From contig CM049306.1 in assembly GCA_026874595.1 (NCBI GenBank), positions 82,424,142 to 82,488,141 of the forward strand: DNA of 64,000 bases, in the 5' to 3' direction. How positions within the stretch are numbered: the first letter of the stretch is position 1; every line of letters starts with the position of its first letter. Of the stretch, positions 1 through 4,445 are shown one piece after another. Both the position numbers and the translations under genes were made by a program. The notes under the pieces are model-generated. The model was not told the DNA's origin and did not search any database. It worked only from the letters and a program-made list of their open reading frames with translations. The DNA is from Sipunculus nudus (Eukaryota > Annelida > Sipuncula > Golfingiida > Sipunculidae).

Positions 1-2318
1 TTTGACGGAAAATGGACGGTCTATTAGGTCCTTTGAAGCGTGCTTTGTGAGGATAACCTATTTGGCAGAGATGGCGGGAGTCCATCTGTCAAGTCAAAAG
101 TGTCATGGGACTTTACACTTCATTGGATATGAATAGAGCCATGTTTATAGCTGTCAAAGACAGGTTTTAAACTGCTCAAGTCTACCCGCTGAACAAGAAG
201 TATTCATCTGATGATCTGGACTTTTTGTTTTATTCTCCTGACCTTTCCGGCTATTGAATCATTAAAGAGATGGTTCATGTTCTGTAAACCAAATATTTTC
301 AGTTGATCTTATTTGTAACCCATGGTATCTGATGTATTAATCTCTATCAGAAGGTCACGATGTTTTAAAATAATGTGGAAGATACTAGAACTCCCTTCGC
401 AACTATGAAACAAGCGATTAATTTTCTAAGTAGAATCAGTACATAAACAGTATTCATCCATAATATATACAATGATGCTTAGAACAGTTCATCGTATATA
501 TCCTAAATTTTCAAGTAGACATAAGGATATTTGTATTTAGCGTTTAGACATTGACCGTGTGTGTACATATAATAAACAGTATTTGTAATCAGTGTATTTT
601 ATTACTAATATTAAGTTTCGAAATGGGTCTATTTTGGAGTTTTATTGTATAATGAGCAGGCGTACAAATTTTGTATCCAGTTGAGGGTTAAATGAAAAAA
701 GAGAGCGTAACACTGTTTATATTTTTAATACAATATTCCTTGTAATAGGAAAGTACGCTTTTGAAAATAGGATATTCAGGATTCCAATTAAACAACAAAC
801 CTGATAGACTCTTTGGTTTCGCCGTTTTCTCTTAAACAGATATATGCTTTAGGACAATCTGAATAGGTATACACGAGGTGCTGTCAGCTCATTGTAAAAC
901 AATTAAGGGAGGTAGTTTTCTTCCAGGCTCGAATGGTGAAGGTCATTAAAATTAAGTGCAGTCAGAATATGTTTGTCCCCATCAAGGTCATTATATTCCC
1001 CTTTGAGGCATCTATTATTACTTAATTTGAAGACACAAAACGAGAAGAACAGAGTTAAATACGACAGTCAGGAGCTCGTAATACGTGTAATTTCCTGATG
1101 TCGTAAATGCAGATGGCGATGACAAGAGGTCGGTAAAATTTCTGAATTATTGACACTGTTTACTGCAGAGTGATGTGTATCTGAAGACAAAAAAAAAAGA
1201 ATCAAATTGCTCTGAAACGGCAAAATTAAAAATATTATAAATTGGTAATTTCAATGCAGCCATAACTTTTAGTCATGCTTCCGCCTGTGGGGATCATGTA
1301 TAAACCCCATTTAGTTGCTAGTTTGTTTTTTCTGTTAGCAACTTTACTCAACATTTATGACGGGATTTTTATGACTTTTTTATGGGCTGTATATTTGTTT
1401 TGGCGGAGAGCGAGTACCTCATCTTTCTCCATAATTAGGGAAGGTCGTAGATATAAATGTCTGACAGTTTTTATACACAGAGGGCACCTTAATGAAGCCG
1501 ACTTTGATCTACAGGACAGAGCTGCATGACCTCTGATTTAAATATCGTGTTAATGATTCCTGACAAACATTTCTCTAGGCTCGGATTGACACATTTCTTA
1601 TATTTACATACAACACAAAAGTTTGATCAGGACGCTTGTAATATTCTTTCGTATATTTATACAAAATGTTGGCGGAGGAAGCTGTCTTGGACCAATTGTT
1701 TGTTAAAGAATGGCTTACGGCCACTGCATATTAGGAAATGGTTGTTAGGTTATCATTGAAACGTCTCCCTTAGTTTTGCATGTTGTCTGCAGCTTAGAAA
1801 AACAGCTTTATTTTGTTTGTGGTTCATTGAGATTAAGTACGGCAGGTGTCCGAAGTATGCTTAAATGATGCTATATTGAGTGTATACAAATACGGAGTCC
1901 TATGATTCAGATAGAAAAGACAAAAATACTGGTTTATATGCGTAGTTGCGGTTGATTTTGCTTTTTAACATCCAAACATTGTCCAGAGCCTGGCACCCTG
2001 ACACCATCCCTATGTGCCGGCTGTTTGGCCAATGTTCCTACCAGGTCACGGTTCACACCAAACAGACACACAAGAACCATACGGACTTGACCTCATTAAC
2101 AAGACTTATCCTATTGACTATATGGATGTAGCCTCGCATATCACACGCTCAGTCTCCTCGCGCTTCTCCCACCTGGCAACATCTGGTCATTTGATGCTGC
2201 ATCTGTTAGTCGTTGAAGTCCTACAGACAGATCAGGAAAATCTGTCTGACACCTGAGGCTTAACGGACTCGCAACATGTCTGTTAACATGGTATTAATTA
2301 TCTTAACAAAAAAAATCG
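1..2318. other. AT-rich unique DNA, no gene recognised
   Basis: No frame here resembles a known protein and no splice-bounded exon stands out. The part at about 1980-2260 is less AT-rich and stays open for 80 codons from 2014 on plus, but the translation has no recognisable domain. It could be regulatory DNA. Confidence 0.5.
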
Positions 2319-2357
2319 TATATATATATATGTGTGTGTGTATGTGTGTGTGTGTGT
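2319..2357. repeat. (TA)n(TG)n microsatellite
   Basis: An alternating TA run passes directly into a TG run. Simple sequence repeat, no coding role seen. Confidence 0.9.
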
Positions 2358-2654
2358 TCAGGCAGTTAATTGCTCTCTAAATGCTTTGCAGTGTTGAGGG
2401 ACATGGCGTTGCCACTACCCCATGGTGAGTTTGTCGAGTCGAGTCGATACGTTGTGAGTGTGCACATTTGTCTTTTATATTGTGTATTTTTATAGTATAA
2501 GTGTATTTTTATATCATATGTGTATACAACTAAAATGTTCAATGTGCCCAAGAAAATAAAATATCAGCATAATATACTGAATAGGCATCCTGGTAAAATA
2601 ATTTTTTGTAATAAATAATTAAAAAAAATAAATAAACAACAACAAACCTCTTTC

Positions 2655-2880
2655 CCCCGTTAAGTCCCAGTTTTGCACGTGTACCCCGACTAATGCTATT
2701 GTTCACCCGAGGACAATAGGATCAGTGTCAGTCTTTCCCTGATTCGCATGCACAAAGCATAATCTCGAAATCTCGTTAAGTCTCGGCTTTTCAAACCATG
2801 CTGTTAGCTTCATTCTCACAACATTCACCTGAGGATCGGGTCGCAACCCGTGAAACAGTCTGTTGTGAATTCACAGTGTT
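2655..2880 (+). repeat. Two diverged tandem units, Penelope-like or retrozyme-like remnant
   Basis: Two units start with the same CGTTAAGTC word, at 2658 and 2774, and both continue through a pyrimidine-rich stretch to a TTCACC word (2702 and 2824). The period is about 116-122 bp. The second unit holds a foldable hammerhead ribozyme core; the first keeps the TTCACC and GAGGA words but not the rest. Tandem terminal units with minimal hammerheads are known for Penelope-like retroelements and for small retrozymes. No reverse transcriptase remains nearby. The family name is an inference from the ribozyme and the tandem layout. Confidence 0.5.
2823..2870 (+). ncRNA. Hammerhead ribozyme-like motif (minimal type I)
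   Basis: The plus strand folds as a three-stem junction. Stem I pairs ATTCAC (2823-2828) with GTGAAT (2865-2870), six perfect pairs. The CTGAGGA core (2829-2835) fits CUGANGA. Stem II pairs CGGGT (2837-2841) with ACCCG (2846-2850) over a CGCA loop. GAA lies at 2852-2854. Stem III pairs ACA (2855-2857) with TGT (2861-2863) over a 3-nt loop. The base at the expected cleavage position is T (2864), an allowed H. The closing pair of stem II (2836 with 2851) is a T-T mismatch instead of the usual G-C, so activity may be weak. Very short stems III are typical of Penelope-associated hammerheads. Chance assembly of all core bases plus three stems is unlikely but not excluded. Confidence 0.6.
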
Positions 2881-2897
2881 GTTTTTCTCCAGTATTT

Positions 2898-2914
2898 TAT
2901 ATATAAATATATAA

Positions 2915-2952
<38 letters not shown>
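2898..2952. repeat. (TATAAATA)n/(TA)n tract
   Basis: A TATAAATA-like repeat leads into pure TA. It lies directly downstream of the hammerhead unit. Confidence 0.9.
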
Positions 2953-2955
<3 letters not shown>

Positions 2956-4171
2956 TCCATATACTGATAATTACTATGCCAACAGTGCAGCAGCAAATAA
3001 ATTGTAATATGATATAATCTAATATAATATATTATAATTATATAAAATAATATAACATATAATAGCGCAATAGTCAAGAGATAGGTATGTAAATGAAGGT
3101 TAATACTGTTTCGTAGGATTAGAAACACTTCTATATGGCAGAGCATTATGACCAGGATGAATTCGTACTAAATGAATAATGTAACACAGTCTTTCAGTAT
3201 AGAGAAATACGTTGAATACTGAACATTCACTTTTAATTTTAACACAAGCCTTCGCAGTTTAAGGCTCCTTGGACATGTGGCAAGTGGATATGTAGTTTCA
3301 TTAGAATAACAATGCATTATGCACATAATGCGTAATTCAGTGTGTTTAATCACTAATTTGACAACGAGGCCAAGAGGTTTAGATTTACCATTTTGTATCT
3401 GTAGTATTTGTTCTTTTTCTTTTCCGGGTATTATTTTGTTTAATACTCATAATTCAAATAATGAAATCCAAACATGTTTTTCTCTTAGCGATTTTCATGA
3501 GAAAATGACTGGACATTCACATTCCCTAAACATTTATATAAGTAATCCTTTAAAATATGAAAAACTATGAGGTTCCCTAAATATAACAAGTTGTAACTTG
3601 TGAAAAATTGAATTATAATTCAAAGACAGACTTTCTTTGATTAATTTCAGTCATCAGCCAAACCCAACCAAACTTAGCGATTAAGTGAAAAACATTGAAA
3701 ACTGCGTCTCTCGGTAATCAGATTTATTTAAATTAGTAAATCAGATTTCCAAAGGATTTATTATAAGCCATGGGCCGTGTTCTCTAAGTTTCAATCGATT
3801 TACAAAGACAACTTAATATGGACGCGGGTCATACTACTTAAATAAACCAATAAACACACAGATGCGGAAAACGAAATTTGACGTTCATCAGCAGTATTTT
3901 ACTCACCAAGCCTGATCTAATGGAACATCTTGCATTTCAATTTTATGACTTTTAGAGTCAACTCTCCACTGAAATTGGTTCTTTGTTGGATAAATATTGG
4001 ATTCTGTGAAATCAAATGCACAAAAGTTGGCTGTTTCCTAGCAGAAATTAAGTTAAATATTTACGTTTGAAATATCGAATATTGAAATCGCAGAAGCTGA
4101 CGTACTTTGTTAAGAATGTTCAAGCTGTCTGATTGATTTTTTTTTTATATTTTAAGCCAATCTATAGAATT
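2953..4171. other. AT-rich, no gene seen
   Basis: Short open frames exist on both strands but none has recognisable domains or flanking splice sites that keep a frame. I see nothing specific here. Confidence 0.5.
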
Positions 4172-4445
4172 TTAACCTGAAAAGTCACTGGTTTATCTGA
4201 TTCATTTTCTCAATTTTACCACAATTTGTAGGTAGTAAACTAAATATGTCACTGTTATATATTATTCATTTTCTTAACTCTATATAAAGGTAATGCAGTT
4301 AAATATGTCACGGTTAATTATGGTTTATTTGCTCAATGTTAACTCAATCCATATATTGTAAAGCTAAACCCGTCACTGTTATTTCTGTATAGGTAGAAAA
4401 GTCAAATATATCACTGGAATCTGTTTCATTTTCGCCATTTTAATT
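4172..4445 (+). repeat. Degenerate tandem repeat, about 60-70 bp units
   Basis: The phrase AAATATGTCACTGTTA, with variants, recurs at about 4176, 4242, 4301, 4366 and 4404, usually followed by a TTCATTTTCTCAATTTTA-like stretch. Five imperfect units are visible, one of them short. The units are diverged, so the array is old. Confidence 0.65.

Follow-up and report, generated by a model that had tools for sequence, protein, structure and literature searches.

The feature that we describe here, at positions 2823–2870 on the forward strand of a 64,000-nucleotide stretch of the Sipunculus nudus genome (the window), is very probably a hammerhead ribozyme belonging to a Penelope-like retrotransposon, of which an old copy that lacks its 5' part survives here. 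Minimal hammerheads of type I were reportedly described from such elements by Cervera and de la Pena in 2014. Hammerheads in such elements are already known, including from passages of PMC11167929, PMC6155905 and PMC7761336, and the window's is a further member.

All named residues of the hammerhead core were found together with three stems, in a type I layout with stem I open, in agreement with the claim of an earlier note on this DNA. Stem I pairs ATTCAC (2823–2828) with GTGAAT (2865–2870) over 6 bp. Its 5' strand is followed by the CUGAGGA core segment (2829–2835), in which N7 is G in the window copy and the family majority reads CUGAUGA, and then by the stem II hairpin (2836–2851), which has a U·U at positions 10.1/11.1 (T2836, T2851) at its base and 5 bp above it (2837–2841/2846–2850), the fifth being closed by A2846, an A seen there in 1 of the 37 copies aligned. 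The GAA core segment (2852–2854) leads into stem III (2855–2863), which consists of 3 bp (ACA/UGU) and a 3-nt loop and is opened by A2855–U2863. By the general hammerhead rule, the predicted cut would presumably fall between U2864 (H17) and G2865. The T-T mismatch at the base of stem II, singled out in the earlier note as an oddity, is indeed present but is the common family state, with U·U and hence no Watson-Crick pair at 10.1–11.1 in 35 of the 37 copies. This pair can vary in nature, as passages of PMC2837043 on cave cricket hammerheads describe compensatory changes at G10.1 and C11.1; U-U appears in those passages in stem III only.

We then estimated how often such a motif would arise by chance. 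A lenient descriptor matched the window once only when both strands were scanned, and the expected numbers per 64-kb window were 0.033 for this descriptor and 0.001 for one with the observed stem lengths (104 lenient and 3 strict matches when 200 Mb were simulated by an order-2 Markov model of the window's composition; thresholds chosen post hoc). These rates leave some room for a chance resemblance, in which a coincidental core in repeated DNA would be shared by the copies through ancestry, a reading that we consider improbable in view of the family-level evidence given below.

The genome holding the window comprises 1.43 Gb in 153 contigs. Positions 2640–2900 were found at no fewer than 41 places, the window itself included, when 40 of 2,780 candidates were scored; 39 of the others were full or near-full matches at 84–88%, and one was a 96-bp piece. 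The pattern CTGANGAN{10,20}GAAACAGNCTGTT occurred exactly at 2,077 genomic places, and its reversed control at none. Neither by pattern nor by blast was the unit found in viral contigs, genome contigs or phages. The family alignment comprised 37 loci, including the window's own, a non-random sample drawn from the best-scoring places. The aligned loci begin at different points but share their 3' region, and blastn of window positions 1301–4400 against the 36 other copies gave a shared part that begins variably (from 2354) and stops between about 2888 and about 2968. Using blastn and alignment to an array unit at locus L158, where it aligns as unit positions 2521–2960, we placed the window copy at 2363–2952 (forward strand), its 3' end being formed by a target-like (TA)n tract at 2898–2952 that was delimited by Tandem Repeats Finder and by the ends of the family. 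None of the 30 stop-to-stop open reading frames (ORFs) of the window had a Pfam match at the curated cutoff, and ARAGORN, run with the bacterial code, reported no tRNA in it. In all likelihood, the window copy is a functionless relic. Two other copies, L182 and L238, lack stem III entirely, with GAAAA joined straight to the 3' strand of stem I.

The hammerhead had also been described as lying in the second unit of a diverged 116–122-bp tandem pair, which our analysis did not bear out. None of the 34 rows of Tandem Repeats Finder covered 2640–2890. With stiff gaps, the score of the two window units was equalled by 80 of 1000 shuffles; with looser gaps, only 0–3 of 1000 shuffles and 0–32 of 1500 other window pairs scored as high. 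When the same two units were taken from the 37-copy consensus, 889–999 of 1000 shuffles equalled the score, and since the units are thus alike in the window but not in the family, their likeness is a product of mutation within the window copy. A reading from sequence alone can detect such a relic yet misjudge its surroundings. The first unit of the supposed pair forms its own hairpin, and no hammerhead, in the array copy. Upstream of the hammerhead, a family-conserved hairpin at window positions 2693–2722, with a 10-bp stem in the array copy, is a possible protein-binding site.

The pair bears directly on whether the feature belongs to a metazoan non-LTR retrozyme, that is, a small non-coding tandem repeat yielding circular RNA. 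Metazoan retrozymes, as described in passages of PMC7229834, share with our family the type I hammerhead and the low GC content of animal repeats, and the tandem pair of the earlier note would have fitted them. The pair is, however, missing from the consensus, and the copies are part of an element whose unit is 2.9 kb long and carries a long ORF, whereas retrozymes measure 150–450 bp and are non-autonomous. We therefore dropped this reading, which calls for a small non-coding unit bounded by hammerheads and which we regard as very unlikely. Of the earlier interpretation, the type I hammerhead and the link to Penelope-like elements thus hold (2,077 places, arrays, an ORF resembling reverse transcriptase and GIY-YIG nuclease), and the link to retrozymes does not.

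The parent of the Penelope-like copy was found elsewhere in the genome as head-to-tail arrays of 2.92–2.93-kb units, each comprising a non-coding pseudo-LTR, the hammerhead and one 713-aa ORF. At L158, four copies of the hammerhead motif lie 2.92–2.93 kb apart with long ORFs between them, and the predicted cut falls 179 nt ahead of the putative ATG in the array unit. Read by eye, the 713-codon ORF of L158 contains FDIVDFYPS, YRDDG and, close to the C-terminus, HYIGCTEGDFKTRYNNH, the first two of which we take for motifs A and C of a reverse transcriptase and the last for a GIY-YIG nuclease. Searches of Pfam with this ORF gave no match of note and those of PDB sequences no convincing one, and its AlphaFold model was unusable (mean pLDDT 32), so the label Penelope-like rests on the motifs read by eye and on the anatomy of the element. 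No confirmed relatives of the ORF were found in viral and genome contigs. A genome search had been proposed for tandem copies near a Penelope-type reverse transcriptase; at least 63 places carry this ORF at 99–100% identity and without stops, 61 of them with 713 codons (63 scored out of 4,242 candidate places), and many lie 2.92–2.93 kb apart.

Insertions of the family have two common 3' ends, at about unit positions 2967 and 3029, which correspond to 35 and 97 nt beyond the predicted cut. At unit 3029, all eight of the ends listed are followed by a (TA)n tract; near unit 2967, most of those printed enter (TA)n as well, with a few less regular. This survey printed no end at 4 of the 37 loci, and L139 and L140 run on into another unit. 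Head-to-head inverted copies occur at L126, L133, L141, L145, L151 and L157, and each of these six pairs, the ones seen among the 37 loci, combines an arm that stops near 2967 with one that stops at 3029. A seventh pair, at L142 when viewed in the longer locus L161, agrees with this rule. The unequal arms look as if two DNA ends had been primed at different start sites. Together, tandem units with pseudo-LTRs, 5' truncation, inverted pairs, an optional 3' tail and a hammerhead in the pseudo-LTR region are all traits of Penelope-like elements.

We next considered the conservation of the motif across the 37 copies. All 11 fixed core bases are kept by 31 of them, and 23 keep the core, H17 and every one of the 13 pairs. 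At N7, 30 copies have T and 7 have G, and H17 is T in 20, A in 14, C in 2 and G in 1. The mean minor-letter share was 0.017 for the core, 0.039 for the whole hammerhead, 0.030 for the preceding 65 bases and 0.065 for 2640–2815; the core is least variable, yet its surroundings are quiet too. Four sites have three or more minor copies, namely N7, loop II, loop III and H17, all of which are places where a hammerhead tolerates change (P = 0.004 with 13 free of 48 positions, the free set having been named after the data were seen). That subfamily-level variation sits at N7, H17 and the loops speaks against a chance resemblance, which finds support, in turn, in the lack of covariation within the family: compensatory stem changes, which had been proposed as a check, were seen at none of the 13 pairs among 21 distinct rows. 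At three places listed for the pattern with 2,077 occurrences, the outer stem II pair is changed on both sides (C-G to U-A at two), but both sides of this pair are CpG sites, and we therefore give these double changes no weight.

A second repeat family carries the same layout. A canonical pattern, which imposed the core and, with G-C at 10.1/11.1, the greater part of stem II but left stems I and III free, matched 12 places (L253–L264) and its reversed control none; a narrower canonical pattern matched 1 place. In blastn, the 12 places align with each other but have no match to the first element better than E 0.03. Stem III has 3 bp in 11 of the 12, as it does in the window's family; among these 11, stem I reaches 5 bp at 7 places and falls short of that at 4, and stem II is broken at 2. 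In 4 of the 11, the sequence turns into (TA)n some 31 nt beyond the predicted cut. This genome thus shows the hammerhead layout close to a (TA)n end more than once, and its recurrence in a second, unalignable family, with stems I and III that the search pattern did not impose, further argues against chance, if with slightly less weight because the core and stem II were imposed. The second family, which may or may not share descent with the first, has other pairs, those of stem II having been imposed by the pattern.

Scoring with the Rfam covariance models, the check first suggested for the motif, reported no hammerhead for the window, even up to E 10, and none for an array copy of the family. 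The test is a weak one, for a textbook type I hammerhead in a viral contig, the single such case tried with a relaxed threshold, was reported at E 0.007 yet fell below the Rfam cutoff (19.9 bits, cutoff 34), and at the gathering threshold Rfam gave no hammerhead at 4 loci with pattern-matched hammerheads. A missed Rfam cutoff consequently says little, and we abandoned it as a disproof; the complete absence from the output is mild evidence against a hammerhead and counts on the side of chance. So do more stable alternative folds. Relative to the ensemble, the hammerhead fold costs 4.8–9.2 kcal/mol in the window copy, the value varying with the stretch that is folded, and 2.5–15.6 kcal/mol in the other copies (35 of 37 scored), compared with a median cost of 0.5 kcal/mol without flank for 111 type I matches from viral contigs chosen by a strict canonical pattern, only 2 of which reach the window value. 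These 111 are the members of a set of 120 viral-contig loci with the canonical core pattern (L001–L120) that also fit the full type I layout.

To gauge activity, we compared the predicted cut with a control point for the 5' ends of insertions that fall there. Ends at the cut were found at 59 places, 39 of them without a directly placed hammerhead upstream (27 with an inverted element, 3 with another element part and 9 with none), and ends at the control point at 29 places, 24 of them without a direct hammerhead (18, 0 and 6, respectively). No clear cleavage footprint emerged from these insertion 5' ends (39/59 vs 24/29), in a test that used unequally strict patterns and one control point and in which scoring counted a few (TA)n tracts as element and the places included some head-to-head arms or mosaics. 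For the Penelope-like hammerhead of PMC11167929, the passages concerned describe cutting only with added protein, and in vitro insertion without need for cleavage. Given the footprint, the fold cost and this analogy, the hammerhead of the window's family may or may not be active.

These results bear on a reading that overlaps with our own, namely that the family descends from a true hammerhead whose ribozyme is inactive throughout, the region being kept for, e.g., protein binding or the start of reverse transcription. We consider this a serious possibility, if somewhat less probable than its converse. The U·U at 10.1/11.1, the 3-bp stem III, the fold penalty of at least 2.5 kcal/mol, the lack of a clear excess of 5' ends at the cut and the protein-dependent cutting and cleavage-free insertion in PMC11167929 would all be expected of an inactive ribozyme. 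Conversely, variation is lowest in the 11 core bases, and H17, though the most variable hammerhead site, is G in one of the 37 copies and A, C or U in the other 36, as cutting would demand.

Under the preferred reading of a Penelope-like hammerhead, we infer the following course of events from what was observed, namely a repeat family in arrays, with a conserved motif, two 3' ends and (TA)n junctions. The array would be transcribed into a long RNA, from which the hammerhead may excise units alone, as a dimer or aided by the element protein. The protein would nick (TA)n DNA, and reverse transcription would start at either of two points, 35 or 97 nt beyond the cut, with the consequence that insertions would finish in (TA)n and be mostly 5'-truncated. 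A more specific version, which we offer as an unlikely conjecture, is that a hammerhead with U·U and a 3-bp stem III might work only as a dimer across array units or with the element protein, which would couple cutting to the choice between the reverse-transcription start sites 35 and 97 nt downstream.

Several published systems show parts of this arrangement. Minimal hammerheads of Penelope-like elements, as described in passages of PMC7761336 and PMC6155905, are likewise of type I with a very short stem III, a pseudo-LTR and tandem arrays; the window's family has U·U at 10.1/11.1 as its norm and may differ from them in this. According to passages of PMC11167929, the Poseidon element PAc of Anolis also has tandem units and a hammerhead near the junction of pLTR and ORF, as well as two internal start sites for reverse transcription, which our two 3' ends match, and an AT-rich target, compared with the (TA)n tracts targeted here; its ORF, however, begins at stem II, whereas the predicted cut in our array unit precedes the putative ATG. 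The Penelope families of Adineta vaga, according to passages of PMC3846280, share pLTRs, inverted pLTR pairs and an optional tail on one arm, which the unequal 3' ends of our inverted arms resemble; they are of low copy number, in contrast to the many near-identical ORFs in long arrays here, and the word hammerhead is absent from the main text of that paper. What hammerheads do in Penelope-like elements is, in the words of a review (PMC7761336), a "mystery". The Sipunculus nudus genome holds array units, two hammerhead families differing at the base of stem II and insertions with two 3' ends, and because near-identical units, two families and many insertions occur together, the role of cleavage should be testable within one species. 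Long runs of near-identical ORFs, many about 2.92–2.93 kb apart, were seen in this assembly (G000) at C12:49443089–49506965 and at C17:42720302–42859899, the latter run, as listed, extending over about 140 kb.
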